Below are positions 1 through 13,490 of a DNA stretch of 34,807 bases, one piece after another (the first letter of the stretch is position 1; each line of letters opens with the position of its first letter). The position numbers and the translations under genes were made by a program. This stretch comes from Candidatus Omnitrophota bacterium (GTDB lineage: Bacteria > Omnitrophota > JAUWXU01). The notes under the pieces are model-generated. The model saw only the letters and a program-made list of their open reading frames with translations, did not search any database and was not told the origin of the DNA. Where the stretch lies: contig JAYELI010000036.1 of the NCBI GenBank assembly GCA_034717435.1, forward strand, positions 1 through 34,807, read 5' to 3'.

Positions 1-83
1 AAAGTAGTCTTTCCATGATCTACGTGCCCAATAGTGCCGATGTTGATATGAGGTTTGGTGCGTTCAAATTTTTCTTTGGCCAT
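1..83 (-). CDS. tuf: Elongation factor Tu, N-terminal fragment (cut by window edge)
   Basis: Only the first 27 codons are present. They read MAKEKFERTKPHINIGTIGH followed by VDHGKTT, the signature N-terminus of EF-Tu including the start of the GTPase P-loop (GHVDHGKT). EF-Tu is the cytoplasmic GTPase that delivers aminoacyl-tRNA to the ribosome. The ATG at 83-81 is preceded by a strong GGAGG at 94-90. The gene lies 23 bases downstream of tRNA-Thr(GGT) and is probably co-transcribed with it from the promoter at 302-332. The rest of the gene lies beyond base 1. Confidence 0.97.
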   Translation of the reverse strand, partial: MAKEKFERTKPHINIGTIGHVDHGKTT

Positions 84-106
84 AAGTTACCTCCTTTTTC
101 ATCAAG

Positions 107-179
107 AGCCCACGCCCGGGATTGAACCGGGGACCTTATCCTTACCAAGGATACGCTCTACCAACTGAGCTACATGGGC
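107..179 (-). tRNA. tRNA-Thr (anticodon GGT)
   Basis: The sequence folds as a full cloverleaf. The acceptor strands GCCCATG and CGTGGGC pair with one G-T wobble, and the anticodon loop TTGGTAA gives anticodon GGT. The D arm and the T arm (GGTTCAATC) are canonical. The discriminator is T, and CCA is not encoded because the next bases are CTT. It sits just ahead of tuf, as thrT does before tufB in E. coli. Confidence 0.97.
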
Positions 180-181
180 AA

Positions 182-203
182 AAAAAGACACACCTGTCTT
201 TTT
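182..203 (-). other. Hairpin just upstream of tRNA-Thr(GGT)
   Basis: A perfect 9-bp stem (AAAAAGACA with TGTCTTTTT) and a 4-base loop end two bases before the tRNA. With its T-rich 3' side it looks like a weak terminator or attenuator. Because it lies between the promoter and the tRNA, it may instead be a leader or processing hairpin. The function is not resolved. Confidence 0.4.
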
Positions 204-301
204 ACGAAGATTACTATAGCACAAATCAAATCTTCGCACCGCCCAAATATATATTATTTTATCTTACTTAACCTATATAGTTAGAATATACAAGTAAAGA
301 T

Positions 302-332
302 ATTATACTAACATAAAAAAAATCTTTGTCAA
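302..332 (-). promoter_or_regulatory. Sigma-70-type promoter for tRNA-Thr(GGT)-tuf
   Basis: Read on the minus strand, a perfect -35 TTGACA (332-327) and a perfect -10 TATAAT (307-302) are separated by 19 bases, which is slightly long. The region around it is very AT-rich. It lies in the gap downstream of the OmpA/LysM gene, so it gives the tuf end of the cluster its own transcription start, about 115 bases before the tRNA. Confidence 0.75.
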
Positions 333-417
333 GGATTTTTAAAAAAATTTTAAAAAATGACAACTATGGACTAATTATAAGCTACATAACTCATTTGGTA
401 GTTTAGGGATATGAAAA

Positions 418-1380
418 TTATTCGATAGGTATAATAATAGAAGTTCCGGCTTCGAGCCTGTCGGGATTTTTAATCCTATCCTTATTCAATTCATAAAGAT
501 ACTTCCAGCGATGCCCGCTGCCTAATTGTTCTTTGGCTATATCCCAAAGTGAGTCGTTTTTCTTAATTATATATTCTTTAGTGGAAACTCTTACTTCTGT
601 CTCTACTACTTCTTTTTTCTCCAAAATGTATTTGCCTTCTTCCAGAGGCACTGCCTCTTCTGTAGAATCTATTTCGCGCTTAGATAACATTACCTCTTGT
701 ACCTCAGCAATCATAAATTGGGCATTTCTGTCCTTCTGCATACCGACAAGGTCTGTAATCGGCGCAACAGCATCAAGCTTACCCCTGCTGACTATCAGGA
801 TATGCTCAGGAGAAACATTTCTTTCCAGCATAAAATTCTTGATCGCATCACCCCGGCGTTTGCCTAATTTTAAATTATAGGCTTCTGGGCCGCGACGGTC
901 GCAGTTACCGGTGATCAGAATAGTTGCTTCGGGGTTCTTTTTAAGAGTTTTTACCGCGCGTTCTAAAATCACAACTGCATCATCGCGTATTCCGGCTTTA
1001 TCAAAGTCAAAGTAAACCTTTATATTTTTGATTATCTTTTTGATCAATAAAGACGGCCTTGGTTCTTCGGGCTTAGCCGGTGGAAGTTCTTCAGCTTTAT
1101 AATCGTAGATAATCTTATAAAGGTAGACATAGCCCCTGTTCCCCCAGGGTGTTATTTCGCCAGGCCGGGTTGGCCACCACCAGTAGCCTGAGCGGTACTT
1201 GTCTTTTACCGGACGCGGAGTAGCATCTGTCGGCCACCATTCAAACCGTTTTTGCATTTTCTCTATTTCCCGCTGTTTTCTGGCTGCCCGCTCTTTTCCT
1301 CCCCGGCCATACACATAACTATTGGCTATAAAAGAAAAAATTAAAATTAAAACAAATACTTTTTTTGTTATGTTTAACAT
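418..1380 (-). CDS. Secreted OmpA-like / LysM peptidoglycan-binding envelope protein
   Basis: This 320-residue protein begins with a signal peptide (residues 1-25, hydrophobic core VFVLILIFSF). A basic and tryptophan-rich segment follows (about 28-90, with FEWWP and GYWWWP). An OmpA-like domain covers about 118-227: VYFDFDKAGI, the turn GNCDRRGPEAYN and the helix KLGKRRGDAI. A C-terminal LysM repeat (about 268-318: YIIKKNDSLWDIAKEQLG to IIIPIE) completes it. Both domains bind peptidoglycan in known families, so the protein probably tethers the envelope to the wall from the periplasm. The ATG follows a G-rich Shine-Dalgarno. It lies 14 bases downstream of pckG and interrupts the tRNA-tuf cluster. 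The function of the Trp-rich part is unknown. Confidence 0.88.
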   Translation of the reverse strand: MLNITKKVFVLILIFSFIANSYVYGRGGKERAARKQREIEKMQKRFEWWPTDATPRPVKDKYRSGYWWWPTRPGEITPWGNRGYVYLYKIIYDYKAEELPPAKPEEPRPSLLIKKIIKNIKVYFDFDKAGIRDDAVVILERAVKTLKKNPEATILITGNCDRRGPEAYNLKLGKRRGDAIKNFMLERNVSPEHILIVSRGKLDAVAPITDLVGMQKDRNAQFMIAEVQEVMLSKREIDSTEEAVPLEEGKYILEKKEVVETEVRVSTKEYIIKKNDSLWDIAKEQLGSGHRWKYLYELNKDRIKNPDRLEAGTSIIIPIE

Positions 1381-1394
1381 ATTTTCCCCCTCTT

Positions 1395-3266
1395 TTAAAA
1401 TGTGTTTGGAGTTATATAATCTCCTTTTTTTAATTTTATATCTTCCAGCCTCTTTTTTTGCTCCTTAAGTATCTTAAATAAAATGTCCGGTGTATCAGGA
1501 ACTTTAGTTTTATAGATCTTAATGATTCTGTCGATCTTGACAAGATTTTCCGGAACTCTTAGAGTGAACTGCGCTATATAATCTTCTTGGCTATAATCTT
1601 TATTAAACGTTTCTTTAAACAGCTTTTTAAGATCTTCGTACTTCGGAATATACCCGGTTGGAGTTTTAATCGCCCCTACCTCGTTATGAACGCGAAGCTC
1701 CATCCATTTAAGCCATACTGCCTTATCTATTTTATCATTTATAAAATTACCCTTGTTATCTTTTAAAAAGTAATTTACCGAGAATATCAGCGGTGGAGAC
1801 GTTATGCTACCGCCAAATTTCAGGTTGTTTTTAATATATTTACCTATCGGTATAGAAAGAAAAGCCAGGTTTGCCATTGGATTAAATTTCCTAATACCGC
1901 TTTTTCCTAAAGCGGCGGCTGTGGTTTCTGACTCTAAAGACGCGCCTTTGGTTATTATTCCATGTTTCCAGTTAAACGACTGCTCAACGGGAAGCCATGT
2001 ATCTGAATCACGACCGCCATAGATTATCCCTTTTACCGCAACACCTTCCGGATTGTTAAGCTCCGGATCTATATTTTCCAGCAACTTTATACCAAGAGTA
2101 AAACGGGCATTAGGATGTGATAACGGTACTTCTTTACTATCGGCATCTAATTTTCCACGAAACCAGTTGCCTGCGTGATTAAAACCTTTTTCAGGAGACC
2201 CAGTGTTCTTTCCAAGCCAGTAAGCGTGATTATCTTCAGTAACTAATATATTTGAAAATATAACCTCGCCAGCTGAGTTTAAAGCCTTCCATATTATAGG
2301 ATCATCTTTTGAATTTATGCCCTGGATTATTCCGAACATTCCCTTTTCTACGTTAACTGCGCGAATCTCTGCGTCCTTCACTCTAAGATAAGCTATATCA
2401 TCTCCGACTATGGTCTCTCCCTTCAGCATAGAAGTAGAAGTCTTTCCGCAAAGCGAAGGAAACGCCCCGGTAAAATAAGTTACTCTGCCTTTTGGGCCGT
2501 GAACCCCCATAAGAAACATATGTTCTGTCAGCCAGGACTCTTCAGACGCCTTATTTATCGCCAATCTCATTGCCAGTTTTTTATGCCCAAGGGTATTACC
2601 GCCATACTGAGTGTTTACGCTATAAACAATATCCTCTTCGATATCAATATATATCCGGCGTTGGTCAACATTTTTACTGACACCATTTTTAAGTTCTCCG
2701 GCAGAATGCACAAACTTAAAGAATGCTTGAGGTTTATCCAGTTTTTTGAACTCTTCATAACCCAGTCTATAAAGTAAATCCTGGGAATGGGCCACATAAC
2801 TGGAATCAGTAAGCTGAACCGCAAGTATGGAAAATTCGGAATTTGTCGGGCCTAAACAAAAAAACTGAATAAAAAGCATCCGGCCATTCATGCTATTTTT
2901 TAAAAAACCATAAATCTCTTTTAATCCTTCTTTTTTATCCGTGGACTTTATATTGGGTCCTAAATCAACGCCTTTTGCTAAAAGAAATTTTGTGTTTTTT
3001 TGATCCCTGGCCTGGTCATAATAACCGTCAAAATGAACCGTGTGACCGTCTATGGAAAGCTTACCTTCTTCGTCATTCTTCACTGCTGTTTCTCTAATAA
3101 AGGAAATATCTTCCGGCCGGTCAGTTGAAACAAAAATCTTATCAGGTCTGCAGATCTCTACATACTTTGCCAGAAAATCAAGCAGCGCCGGATTATTTAA
3201 CATCACGAGCTTCTCAAAATTCCCCGGCATGCATTTAGTTTTAAGTAGGTTTAGTGTTTTTTCCAT
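1395..3266 (-). CDS. pckG: Phosphoenolpyruvate carboxykinase (GTP), archaeal-like type
   Basis: The enzyme interconverts oxaloacetate plus GTP with PEP, CO2 and GDP in the cytoplasm. Family motifs are present in order: NTQYGGNTLGHKK with the metal-binding lysine, EHMFLMGVHGP with the metal-binding histidine, the P-loop with mobile cysteine FPSLCGKTSTSM, the kinase-2 motif GDDIAYLR, and the substrate motif NARF. Phrases such as KGASLESETTAA and FSVNYFLKD match, from memory, the 620-residue PEPCK of Thermococcus and Pyrococcus better than common bacterial forms. I chose the ATG at 3266 (623 residues) because it fits that length. The frame stays open to a TTG at 3338, but those extra codons would translate a palindromic repeat. 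No strong Shine-Dalgarno is seen at 3266. Confidence 0.93.
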   Translation of the reverse strand: MEKTLNLLKTKCMPGNFEKLVMLNNPALLDFLAKYVEICRPDKIFVSTDRPEDISFIRETAVKNDEEGKLSIDGHTVHFDGYYDQARDQKNTKFLLAKGVDLGPNIKSTDKKEGLKEIYGFLKNSMNGRMLFIQFFCLGPTNSEFSILAVQLTDSSYVAHSQDLLYRLGYEEFKKLDKPQAFFKFVHSAGELKNGVSKNVDQRRIYIDIEEDIVYSVNTQYGGNTLGHKKLAMRLAINKASEESWLTEHMFLMGVHGPKGRVTYFTGAFPSLCGKTSTSMLKGETIVGDDIAYLRVKDAEIRAVNVEKGMFGIIQGINSKDDPIIWKALNSAGEVIFSNILVTEDNHAYWLGKNTGSPEKGFNHAGNWFRGKLDADSKEVPLSHPNARFTLGIKLLENIDPELNNPEGVAVKGIIYGGRDSDTWLPVEQSFNWKHGIITKGASLESETTAAALGKSGIRKFNPMANLAFLSIPIGKYIKNNLKFGGSITSPPLIFSVNYFLKDNKGNFINDKIDKAVWLKWMELRVHNEVGAIKTPTGYIPKYEDLKKLFKETFNKDYSQEDYIAQFTLRVPENLVKIDRIIKIYKTKVPDTPDILFKILKEQKKRLEDIKLKKGDYITPNTF

Positions 3267-3290
3267 CAGCGTATGAAAATCTTCGATTAA

Positions 3291-3329
3291 GGTACCGACA
3301 ACTTGCCGTTGAGGCAAATTGTCGGTACC
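3291..3329. repeat. Palindromic repeat, copy 1 (35-bp core 3293-3327)
   Basis: Two 17-base arms, one starting GGTACCGACAACTTGCC, flank a 5-base loop GTTGA with a single mismatch. The 35-bp core aligns without gaps to the palindrome at 13444-13478: 27 of 35 positions match and all eight differences are transitions. It lies in the leader of pckG, 24 bases before the ATG. It is a member of a dispersed REP- or MITE-like family, or possibly a structured leader element. Confidence 0.8.
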
Positions 3330-3339
3330 AATTCGCAAT

Positions 3340-3376
3340 ATAATTTACAAAAAATCTTTGATTTTTTGTAAATTAT
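3340..3376 (-). other. Perfect AT-rich 17-bp hairpin between tRNA-Gly and pckG
   Basis: Arms of 17 bases (ATAATTTACAAAAAATC and its complement) enclose a 3-base loop. The hairpin starts 8 bases after the encoded CCA of tRNA-Gly. No T-run follows it, so it is a poor terminator. A processing site, or a barrier between tRNA and mRNA, is an alternative. Confidence 0.6.
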
Positions 3377-3384
3377 TTGCTCAT

Positions 3385-3458
3385 TGGAGCGAGAGATGGG
3401 AATCGAACCCACGTAGGTAGCTTGGAAGGCTACTGCACTACCACTGTGCTACTCTCGC
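3385..3458 (-). tRNA. tRNA-Gly (anticodon TCC)
   Basis: The cloverleaf has acceptor GCGAGAG/CTCTCGC with seven Watson-Crick pairs. The anticodon loop CTTCCAA gives TCC, and the T loop is TTCGATT. Discriminator T and CCA are encoded. It corresponds in order and anticodon to glyT of the E. coli thrU-tyrU-glyT-thrT-tufB cluster. Confidence 0.97.
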
Positions 3459-3466
3459 GATTTTTA

Positions 3467-3509
3467 CACAGATTGGCACAGATGTCTTTTACGTTTGTGC
3501 CCATCTGTG
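3467..3509. repeat. Imperfect palindrome between tRNA-Tyr and tRNA-Gly
   Basis: Fourteen-base arms (CACAGATTGGCACA and TGTGCCCATCTGTG, one mismatch) flank a 15-base loop and fill most of the gap between the two tRNAs. The internal CACAGAT-type reiteration resembles the other degenerate intergenic repeats in this window. A role in tRNA processing is possible but not shown. Confidence 0.6.
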
Positions 3510-3515
3510 GTTACA

Positions 3516-3602
3516 TGGTGGGCAGGGGAGGGTTCGAACCTCCGTAGGTCTAAGACCGCCAGATTTACAGTCTGGTACGTTTGGCCACTCCGTCACCTGC
3601 CC
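3516..3602 (-). tRNA. tRNA-Tyr (anticodon GTA)
   Basis: This is an 87-base class II tRNA. Its acceptor is GGGCAGG/CCTGCCC, the anticodon stem CCAGA/TCTGG holds GTA, and there is a long variable arm and a canonical T loop TTCGAAC. Discriminator A and CCA are encoded. It matches tyrU in the conserved cluster order. Confidence 0.97.
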
Positions 3603-3621
3603 AAAACTTCTACGGTTCAAG

Positions 3622-3693
3622 AGCCGAGGATAGGACTTGAACCTACAACCTGAGGTTTACAAAACCCCTGCTCTGCCATTGAGCTACCCCGGC
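3622..3693 (-). tRNA. tRNA-Thr (anticodon TGT)
   Basis: The acceptor strands GCCGGGG and CCTCGGC pair with one G-T, and the anticodon loop TTTGTAA gives TGT. The discriminator is T, and CCA is not encoded because CTT follows. It starts 27 bases after the nnrD stop with no promoter visible in between. It may therefore be transcribed with the nnrD operon or from a promoter inside nnrD. It corresponds to thrU. Confidence 0.96.
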
Positions 3694-3720
3694 AAAACTT
3701 ATCTCAAAGCAAAACTTAAG

Positions 3721-4584
3721 TTAAGAAAGCGCTTTAAACACTGCCGCCAAGTTATCCAGGATATCACTGGCAATCAAACTGATCTTACCCTTTTTTTTAG
3801 ACGCTAAGTCCCCGGCTTTTCCGTGGGTATAAACCGCTAATTTTGCTGCTTCATATTCCGGGATCCCCTGACTGATCAAAGAAGCAATCATTCCGGTCAG
3901 GATGTCACCCGCTCCAGCAGTAGCCATACCGGAATTACCGGTTTTATTCACATAACTATCTGTTTCAGGGCCGGCAACAACGGTTTGATAGCCTTTAAGC
4001 ACGACTACCAGATTATGCCTATTGGCAAAATCTTTAGCGACCTTCTGCCGATTTCTCTGGATAGTGTCGATTTCCATCCTGGCCAGCCTGGCCATTTCCC
4101 CGGGATGGGGAGTAATTACCACCGGGTATTTAATTAACTTCAAGACTGAACTATTCCCAGCTATGCAATTCAATCCATCAGCATCAAGAACTAATGGTTT
4201 ACTTATGGTTTTTATTAATTCATTGACTAACGATTTTGTCCCTTTGTTGGTAGTAAGCCCTGGACCTAAAGCAACCACATCAACATCTTTTAAGATGCGT
4301 TTGATTTCCGGAGCTGCCTTCAAGCTTAACGAGGCATTGGTTGTTTCAACAAGAGGCTTGGTCATAACTTCGGTAAGCTTAACCTCCATTATCGGGTTAA
4401 GGCTCCGCGGAATCCCCAAAGTAACCAGACCGCACCCTGAACGAAGCGCCCCCAGACTGCATAAACTGGCAGCTCCGGTCATGCCCTCTGAGCCGCTCAA
4501 AACCAGAACATGGCCATAATCACCCTTATGGGAATTCTGTTTTCTCTTCGCAATGATTTCTAAAAATTGTTTATTAATAATCAC
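3721..4584 (-). CDS. nnrD: ADP/ATP-dependent NAD(P)H-hydrate dehydratase
   Basis: This enzyme repairs damaged NAD(P)H hydrates in the cytoplasm, in the YjeF C-terminal ribokinase-like fold. Visible motifs are GDYGHVLVLSGS (21-32), LGPGL (106-110), DADGLN (134-139), TPHPGEMARL (158-167) and the nucleotide/catalytic loop GMATAGAGDILTGM (219-232). At 287 residues it carries only the dehydratase domain. The epimerase (NnrE) half found in fused bacterial YjeF proteins is absent and would have to be elsewhere. Its ATG overlaps the acpS stop by four bases (ATGA), which indicates translational coupling. Confidence 0.95.
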   Translation of the reverse strand: MIINKQFLEIIAKRKQNSHKGDYGHVLVLSGSEGMTGAASLCSLGALRSGCGLVTLGIPRSLNPIMEVKLTEVMTKPLVETTNASLSLKAAPEIKRILKDVDVVALGPGLTTNKGTKSLVNELIKTISKPLVLDADGLNCIAGNSSVLKLIKYPVVITPHPGEMARLARMEIDTIQRNRQKVAKDFANRHNLVVVLKGYQTVVAGPETDSYVNKTGNSGMATAGAGDILTGMIASLISQGIPEYEAAKLAVYTHGKAGDLASKKKGKISLIASDILDNLAAVFKALS

Positions 4585-4970
4585 GGCTCGGCGTTTGCGA
4601 TTAAGATAGCGCTGGCCAAGGCAAACTTTTTTGTGTGGGAGAGACTTATGGCTATCTTGTTGATTCTCGAATTTTCTCCTAATCTCTTAGCCGAGTTGGA
4701 AAAATTGACTTCGGGTTTACCGCTTTTATCATTCAGAATTTCGATGTCGCGCAATCTTATCGCTTTTATTTTTTCATTGCCAAAGGCTTTAAGCACAGCT
4801 TCCTTAGCGGCGAATCTTGCCGCCAGATGTTCAACCGAAGACTTTTTGTTTAAAGAGTATTTTATTTCGCGATCGGTAAAGACTCTTTTAATTAACTTAT
4901 CATTCCATCTGTCAAGGGCTTTCTTAAAATGCTCTATTTCTACTAGATCTATGCCGCTGCCAGCTATCAT
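4581..4970 (-). CDS. acpS: Holo-[acyl-carrier-protein] synthase
   Basis: The enzyme transfers 4'-phosphopantetheine from CoA to acyl carrier protein. At 129 residues it has the usual length. The N-terminus GSGIDLVEIEHF supplies the magnesium-binding Asp8. The block HLAARFAAKEAVLKAFG supplies Glu57, and FTDREI (31-36) is typical. It overlaps both neighbours, pdxJ and nnrD, by four bases. The pdxJ-acpS-nnrD order is a common bacterial arrangement. Confidence 0.96.
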   Translation of the reverse strand: MIAGSGIDLVEIEHFKKALDRWNDKLIKRVFTDREIKYSLNKKSSVEHLAARFAAKEAVLKAFGNEKIKAIRLRDIEILNDKSGKPEVNFSNSAKRLGENSRINKIAISLSHTKKFALASAILIANAEP

Positions 4971-13320: not shown

Positions 13321-13397
13321 TGGTAGCGGCGATAGGACTCGAACCTATGACATGCCGGGTATGAGCCGACCGCTCTAACCAACTGAGCTACGCCGCC
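13321..13397 (-). tRNA. tRNA-Met (anticodon CAT, elongator)
   Basis: The acceptor is GGCGGCG/CGCCGCT with a G-T closing pair. The anticodon stem GTCGG/CCGGC holds loop CTCATAC. Discriminator A and CCA are encoded. The 5' half closely follows the common elongator-Met pattern. A tRNA-Ile(CAT), the TilS substrate, shares the anticodon but usually has a different acceptor, so it is the less likely reading. Confidence 0.93.
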
Positions 13398-13406
13398 AAT
13401 AAGGAT

Positions 13407-13430
13407 ATAATCCCGAAATTTTGGGATTAT
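13407..13430. other. Symmetric hairpin upstream of tRNA-Met
   Basis: ATAATCCC and GGGATTAT arms face each other across an 8-base AT-rich centre that can also pair, giving a nearly continuous palindrome ten bases before the tRNA 5' end. It lies between the tRNA promoter and the mature tRNA, so a leader-processing role is possible. Confidence 0.45.
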
Positions 13431-13443
13431 GTGTCCGAGTTGA

Positions 13444-13478
13444 TATCGACGACTTACCATTAAGACAAGTTGTCGATA
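13444..13478. repeat. Palindromic repeat, copy 2
   Basis: This 35-bp palindrome starts TATCGACGACTTACC. It aligns without gaps to 3293-3327, with eight differences that are all transitions. One pair (positions 3 and 33) changes from C-G to T-A, so pairing is kept. It lies in the leader between the tRNA-Met promoter and the tRNA. Confidence 0.8.
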
Positions 13479-13490
13479 CATTCCTTGTTA

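Follow-up and report, generated by a model that had tools for sequence, protein, structure and literature searches.

An interrupted tRNA-tuf cluster and a family of intergenic hairpin elements associated with GIY-YIG genes in Omnitrophota

The stretch analysed here (the window; 34,807 nucleotides) is contig C36 (JAYELI010000036.1) of G000, a Candidatus Omnitrophota genome of 1.0 Mb and 96% completeness. Near its left end, a cluster of four tRNA genes beside tuf is interrupted by two protein genes, pckG and an ompA/lysM gene, with a pair of palindromes on their upstream side. We regard it as rather probable that an ancestral cluster was split by insertion of pckG and ompA/lysM and, jointly, that the palindromes are a copy of a mobile element linked to GIY-YIG nuclease genes. 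The hairpins belong to a family with a recurrent anatomy and covarying stems that is distributed across the phylum, differs in presence and absence between close relatives and is associated with GIY-YIG genes. The GIY-YIG protein is proposed to cut and move these repeats; the window copy would be tied to it through members of the same family in relatives, as recognized by a model of the first hairpin (R3). Relevant features of the window are as follows.

1-83, minus strand: 5' end of the second tuf copy, truncated where the contig begins; positions 1-99 recur without mismatch at 14274-14372 of contig C17
106-179, minus strand: tRNA-Thr(GGT), thrT equivalent (ARAGORN)
302-332, minus strand: promoter-like site before tRNA-Thr(GGT)-tuf, TTGACA with TAGTAT (spacer 16) or TATAAT (spacer 19)
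418-1380, minus strand: OmpA/LysM-domain protein of 320 amino acids (Pfam PF00691, PF01476), inserted gene
1395-3266, minus strand: pckG, GTP-type phosphoenolpyruvate (PEP) carboxykinase of a Hadarchaeota-like type (NF003253; tree), inserted gene
3291-3329, minus strand: second hairpin, the closed inner inverted repeat of the element (model R2, which includes this copy)
3329-3387, minus strand: first hairpin of the element, whose outer stem can use the CCA end of tRNA-Gly (R3, 81.5 bits; this copy is itself in R3)
3385-3458, minus strand: tRNA-Gly(TCC), glyT equivalent (ARAGORN)
3516-3602, minus strand: tRNA-Tyr(GTA), tyrU equivalent (ARAGORN)
3621-3693, minus strand: tRNA-Thr(TGT), thrU equivalent (ARAGORN)
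3721-4584, minus strand: nnrD, NAD(P)H-hydrate dehydratase (PF01256), conserved upstream neighbour of the cluster
4581-4970, minus strand: acpS (PF01648), upstream neighbour
13396-13482, plus strand: second, weaker copy of the hairpin element (R2, 46.2 bits at 13434-13482; R3, 23.1 bits, E 0.006, at 13396-13442)

All four tRNAs of the cluster lie on the minus strand, with anticodons TGT, GTA, TCC and GGT. Read on this strand, the order is tRNA-Thr(TGT), tRNA-Tyr(GTA), tRNA-Gly(TCC), pckG, ompA/lysM, tRNA-Thr(GGT), tuf. The Escherichia coli K-12 cluster thrU(UGU)-tyrU(GUA)-glyT(UCC)-thrT(GGU)-tufB contains the same tRNAs with the same anticodons in the same order beside tuf. A preliminary description of this DNA had equated the two orders once the protein genes are disregarded, and ARAGORN, Pfam and the comparison with K-12 bear this out. 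Unlike in E. coli, the window cluster is not contiguous: the two protein genes (418-3266) and the hairpin repeat separate the glyT and thrT equivalents, and a promoter-like site stands directly before thrT-tuf.

To place this arrangement among relatives, 23 genomes of the phylum with tRNA-Thr(GGT) just upstream of tuf were surveyed, 21 of which are readable for at least 1.4 kb upstream (all except G011 and G033). tRNA-Gly(TCC) is also found upstream in seven of the 21. In G025 the whole cluster is intact, with 231 nt between tRNA-Gly and tRNA-Thr(GGT), and in G023, G057 and G030 tRNA-Gly lies 267, 306 and 132 nt, respectively, from Thr(GGT)-tuf. Other genomes have different genes in this gap: a nucleotidyltransferase/HEPN pair in G046, and a PIG-L-domain protein, tRNA-Thr(TGT) and MgtE in G024, where the order of tRNAs is changed. 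In G045 the gap measures about 1.5 kb and holds an opposite-strand open reading frame (ORF). In G000, G046, G024 and G025 the cluster is directly preceded by nnrD, identified in the last by sequence pattern and in the others by Pfam. Intact G025 and the different genes in the gap of relatives thus indicate that the intact state exists in the phylum and that the Gly-Thr(GGT) junction was entered more than once. Since one relative is intact, three more have tRNA-Gly no more than 306 nt from Thr(GGT)-tuf and two have other genes there, insertion is the best reading of the split cluster, in agreement with what had been proposed. Also as expected, pckG and OmpA/LysM genes are not usual neighbours of the cluster, none being so placed in 29 and 11 loci of relatives, respectively, mostly with about 1.5 kb of flank. 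The G046 cluster (L196, C15) has, in addition, a gene of the 23S-rRNA-IVP family (four-helix) between tRNA-Thr(TGT) and tRNA-Tyr.

The preliminary description further assumed that a new promoter restores transcription of tuf. A TTGACA...TATAAT promoter-like site is indeed located at about 332-302 on the minus strand, yet the site is not new, because intact and near-intact clusters carry one of the same type: it sits in the Gly-Thr gap of G025, G023, G057 and G030. Over positions 1-4600 as a whole, promoter-like sites (12) are no more numerous than in shuffles (mean 9.3). Directly before tRNA-Thr(GGT), a TTGACA/TATAAT-type site with at most one mismatch occurs in 17 of 21 genomes including that of the window, with 0.23 expected from base shuffles; the site has two mismatches in G027, G053 and G043 and three in G009. 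This count covers 21 regions and leaves out G011, G033 and G055, which also have Thr(GGT)-tuf. pckG and ompA/lysM hence entered upstream of a pre-existing promoter.

The window PckG matches NF003253 over its full length (639.5 bits, cut-off 504) and is a GTP-type PEP carboxykinase. Its nearest relative is that of G001 (75% over 406 residues); similarity to Hadarchaeota reaches 71%, and scattered bacterial metagenome-assembled genomes (MAGs) are also among the nearest. In a quick tree of 93 rows, with Shimodaira-Hasegawa-like approximate likelihood-ratio (SH-aLRT) values as sole support, the window pckG forms one group with those of G001 and an Omnitrophota MAG, placed in a ten-row clade that includes four Hadarchaeota (SH-aLRT 99), and the archaeal-type pckG of other phylum members falls apart from this clade. 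The gene was most likely gained horizontally by the family and afterwards placed in the cluster. None of the loci examined, 29 of relatives (flanks up to 1.5 kb) and 25 named ones, has the tRNA cluster around pckG; a lone tRNA-Met occurs near pckG in one of the 29 and one other tRNA in each of four of the 25. pckG is followed by purC in the three loci checked by Pfam (L044, G016, G046) and by an AMP-binding enzyme in G001. Homologues of the OmpA/LysM protein (46-63% identity) are found in 12 relatives; the tRNA cluster is absent from the 11 homologue loci scanned, one of which, in G022, lies close to two tRNA-Arg genes.

The left edge of the window is the contig edge inside tuf. The stretch of C17 identical to it covers the start of a complete tuf, which follows an EF-G-like ORF (named by sequence pattern). 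The first 127 nt of C17 repeat, without difference, the end region of its own complete tuf and are followed by rpmG, tRNA-Trp and secE; therefore the canonical order past the window's tuf most likely continues there, judging from the assembly breaks.

The palindromes themselves consist of arms 3340-3356/3360-3376 (17 nt, 100% complementary) and 3291-3307/3313-3329 (17 nt, 94% complementary). In the first hairpin, the CCA of tRNA-Gly can join the outer stem (CCAAT with ATTGG). When the window was used as a DNA query, the palindrome region came up again beside other tRNAs in G000. When 3' flanks of 45 tRNA matches in this genome were read by eye, the repeat, whole or as its first hairpin, was found behind Gly(TCC), Gly(GCC), His, Leu(CAA), Pro(TGG), Pro(CGG), Ile, Trp and Arg(CCG), the first hairpin starting with the CCA end or a few bases past the 3' end. 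The weaker window copy abuts the 5' end of a tRNA-Met (13321-13397), and copies away from tRNAs exist as well, e.g. in G001 at C44. Behind tRNA-Arg(ACG) of G000 (L121, 2127-2203, contig C20), a shortened hairpin copy is followed by a tadA-like deaminase gene; deaminases of the tadA class modify the Arg(ACG) anticodon.

R3 derives from ten copies, nine of G000 and one of G001, and R2, which took the place of an earlier, unused model with shifted structure (R1), from seven of G000, so that matches in these genomes are partly due to construction. With this reservation, the first hairpin occupies at least 13 separate places in G000. The second, sought in 58 genomes, is present nine times in G000 and once in G001, and G050 has a single weak match. 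Stems covary: both sides are changed in 12 of 119 and 24 of 189 cells, values that none of 500 shuffles reaches. Two other candidate identities were rejected. Within seven loci searched against Rfam, only tRNAs and one group I intron reach the gathering score, and a conserved mini-ORF at the first bases (ATG AGC AAA TAA) is contradicted by the variability of copies. The intron (212 nt, RF00028, 53.1 bits, gathering 50) splits a tRNA-Arg(UCU) gene of G000 (L217, 1694-1982, minus strand, contig C54) that stands between tRNA-Pro and tRNA-His.

On a wider scale, R3 has matches in 20 of 36 genomes at E<=0.05 and, with the cut-off at E<=1e-4, in 93 of the 193 phylum members scanned (G000 and G001 included in both counts). 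The 193-genome scan considered at most 28 candidates per genome under strict filters, and copy numbers derived from it are lower bounds. A further 78 loci (923 kb), most of them from archaea and other bacteria, contained no match at E<=1. The consensus of ten copies starts with CCAATGAG and ends with GAATTG. By eye, 26 full loci share the frame T-N-A-A-T-G-A-G ... G-C-G-A-A-T-T-N-A with small variations, N being mostly a pairing position. A complete element consists of hairpin, inner inverted-repeat arm, content, second arm and inverted hairpin. Its content is either a short spacer or an ORF of 76-85 amino acids, which is GIY-YIG according to Pfam. Six elements in four relatives, three in G024 and one each in G014, G023 and G007, enclose such a Pfam-confirmed ORF; the window copy does not. 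In L340 and L341, the same inner module is present in opposite orientation.

An element starts at the stop codon of the preceding gene or next to it, and extends to, or nearly to, the ribosome-binding site or start codon of the following gene. In G014, elements precede groES and separate groES from groEL (groES by Pfam; groEL as a partial match just under the cut-off). Junctions of the S10-spc ribosomal operon were surveyed in 14 genomes, several on partial contigs, and range from overlaps to hundreds of bases. Within genus g8, the rpmC-rpsQ junction measures +378 nt in G007, where it contains a GIY-YIG element, versus -4 in G013, and rpsQ-rplN measures +156 versus -1. Between rplP and rpmC, 199, 173 and 173 nt with different inner modules are found in G007, G013 and G016, as opposed to -4 in G004 of the same family. 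All ten R3 matches in S10-spc operons come from G007, G010, G013 and G016; in the remaining genomes, the longer gaps have palindromes of other kinds or lack them altogether. Between the last stem of the insert and the start codon of rpmC, rplN, rplX or rplV there are 0-3 bases. By eye, no Shine-Dalgarno sequence is evident before these start codons, nor before pckG of the window. In one of the S10 operons (L360, G001:C105), gene order is unusual, rpsC-rplP and rplC-rplD being apparently exchanged, which is either real or an assembly fault.

GIY-YIG genes were also examined from the opposite side, for inverted repeats in their flanks. Of 60 matches, the 30 with loci were used; removal of three UvrC-sized proteins (inverted repeats of 0, 10 and 0 nt) left 27, from 12 genomes. 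An exact inverted repeat of at least 12 nt within about 120-130 nt of both ends accompanies 14 of these small GIY-YIG ORFs, compared with 14 of 364 control ORFs, which include spurious ORFs and loci holding palindromes. Among the 14 positives, L314 and L315 already belong to the six R3 elements, and the arms of L319 are 111 and 76 nt away. As R3 matches only these two of the 30 GIY-YIG loci, most of the inverted repeats flanking GIY-YIG genes are of other kinds. Some arms are of CGTC or TGTC type, including those of G000's own GIY-YIG genes at C20. There (L334, 28120-29051), two tandem GIY-YIG gene copies are flanked by CGTCATTGCGAGG palindromes, followed by short tandem repeats. In G014 (L326, C23), a formyltransferase-like gene has two starts, one truncated, the second recoded, with a GIY-YIG ORF between them, an arrangement that may be compared to homing elements.

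Relatives of the 96-amino-acid type of GIY-YIG protein are encoded in 33 records of a plasmid collection, 12 of which were picked by hand across genera, leaving out Neisseria H4 and close duplicates. The gene is flanked on either side by inverted palindromes, with a CGTC-type start by eye, in eight of these 12 named records: Azospirillum, Neorhizobium, Shinella, Rhizobium CIAT894, Novosphingobium, Sphingobium, Aeromonas and Neisseria. They are absent from the records of Photobacterium, Sinorhizobium, Rhizobium tumorigenes and Planktothrix. None of 24 control coding sequences (from 38 annotated features of one 45-kb stretch of one Azospirillum plasmid) has such flanks. The A. lipoferum GIY-YIG gene is located between sufB and sufC, and none is found at this place in three other Azospirillum records.

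Several observations weigh against the joint reading of an inserted pckG-ompA pair and a GIY-YIG-linked element. Dispersal of the cluster is common: in 14 of the 21 relatives, not one of the remaining three tRNAs is in view upstream. The one genome of the same family examined, G001 (72% complete), has no cluster tRNA among the tRNAs found in its contigs. The right-hand hairpin is missing from the window copy. G000 yielded no GIY-YIG gene enclosed by hairpins of this type, and three of its GIY-YIG loci, when searched with R3, had no match; the link of the window copy to GIY-YIG therefore runs through relatives. At the strict setting, 100 of the 193 genomes have no R3 match; one of five covariation measures (further pair types) does not exceed shuffles for the second hairpin (145 of 500); 13 of the 27 small GIY-YIG ORFs and the four named records listed above lack palindromic flanks; and G000 has three Y1_Tnp (Y1/RAYT-type) matches. 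The dispersal, the small share of relatives with tRNA-Gly upstream and the changed order in G024 could mean that general rearrangement broke up the cluster and that pckG-ompA did not arrive as an insertion. We consider this unlikely, as a simple insertion accounts better for the window, where the four tRNAs are still in order on one strand and nnrD precedes them. The Y1 matches raise the question of whether transposases related to RAYTs (REP-associated tyrosine transposases) mobilize the hairpins, as they do GTAG repetitive extragenic palindromic (REP) elements. No Y1 gene flanked by the repeat was found: by eye, the two Y1 genes complete in their loci have other flanking repeats, and the third is cut by a contig edge. 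Moreover, G001 carries hairpin copies but no Y1 match, and the ORF inside the element in relatives is GIY-YIG. Mobilization by Y1 transposases therefore seems improbable, and the palindromes were rejected as repeats of the RAYT genes found. The two complete genes, at G000:C57 (L255) and G000:C41 (L256), are each flanked by an inverted repeat of their own.

Another possibility is that the palindromes are not mobile DNA but signals made by the host at tRNA 3' ends, such as terminator, processing or stability hairpins. The first hairpin does start at or near the 3' end of nine G000 tRNAs and does covary. Intrinsic terminators were nevertheless rejected, since no T-run follows and there is no terminator-like call at 3289-3387. 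In relatives, the same hairpin is found between protein genes, inverted pairs of it enclose GIY-YIG genes, and its presence varies within one genus; host signals are thus a doubtful explanation. Still less likely, and in our view very improbable, is that the palindromes carried pckG-ompA in or are a scar of their insertion. The preliminary description had noted palindromes on the upstream side of the inserted genes, and they are real and exactly at this edge. As a mark of insertion they fail: the same repeat follows at least eight other tRNA genes without such an insert, so that it cannot be counted as part of the pckG cargo, and R2 and R3 find no copy at the downstream edge (180-418).

Assuming that the joint reading is correct, events can be pictured as follows. 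pckG and the OmpA/LysM gene would have entered the ancestral thr(TGT)-tyr-gly-thr(GGT)-tuf cluster between tRNA-Gly and the existing promoter, so that tuf would keep its own promoter, and pckG-ompA would most likely be expressed by transcriptional readthrough from acpS-nnrD-tRNA upstream. The palindromes that separate tRNA-Gly from pckG would be a one-sided, ORF-less copy of an intergenic palindromic mobile element. In complete elements, the GIY-YIG nuclease may cut intergenic target DNA, with the element being copied in by break repair; ORF-less copies could be mobilized in trans. RNA of the insert is predicted to fold into consecutive hairpins, at whose bases the preceding stop codon (or tRNA CCA) and the following start codon would be located. 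By its position and folding, such an insert may keep stop and start codons near each other and may thus be tolerated in essential operons and behind tRNAs.

The hairpin family resembles several known systems. Like GTAG REPs and REPINs with their RAYTs, it comprises short intergenic palindromes, inverted pairs and a small enzyme gene in some copies; in contrast, its consensus has no GTAG tag, its stems are longer and contain GA/GA mismatches (by eye), and the enclosed gene is GIY-YIG, not Y1. CGTC REPs are described as having a CGTC tag, an 8-9 bp stem and a CCA-like tail and as being without dedicated transposase (PMC3733652). Inverted palindromes of that kind flank the related 96-amino-acid GIY-YIG gene in several genomes. 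The window repeat, with its two-hairpin build and without CGTC tag, is not a CGTC REP. The closest functional parallel is provided by the seg genes of phage T4, free-standing GIY-YIG homing endonucleases, of which segB lies between two tRNA genes (PMC2988022). These are likewise small intergenic GIY-YIG genes, whereas the elements described here are bounded by inverted palindromes and have many ORF-less copies in bacterial chromosomes. In the open PubMed Central (PMC) literature, no paper containing both "GIY-YIG" and "repetitive extragenic palindromic" was found, an earlier description being possible in subscription papers, which lie outside this scope. Open papers containing both "GIY-YIG" and "REPIN" concern, by title, restriction enzymes or restriction-modification, and the portion seen of an Omnitrophota paper (PMC10066038) has nothing on repeats. 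The hairpin family is apparently an undescribed variant of palindromic mobile element.

Taken alone, the split cluster, with genes inserted at an old tRNA-tuf junction, is of modest interest. More weight falls on the palindromes, since they hint at repeats moving together with a GIY-YIG nuclease rather than with a Y1 transposase. A more general proposal, for and against which we find the case evenly balanced, is that small single-domain GIY-YIG endonucleases mobilize a broad class of bacterial intergenic palindromes, including this hairpin family and CGTC REPs. Such elements would settle in the space separating a stop codon from the next start codon, or directly after a tRNA, and by folding out of the transcript would leave the following gene translatable. 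The association provides a concrete candidate enzyme in cultured bacteria such as Azospirillum, which makes the proposal testable at the bench. If true, it would explain the inserts of one to several hundred bases between ribosomal-protein genes of uncultured bacteria.

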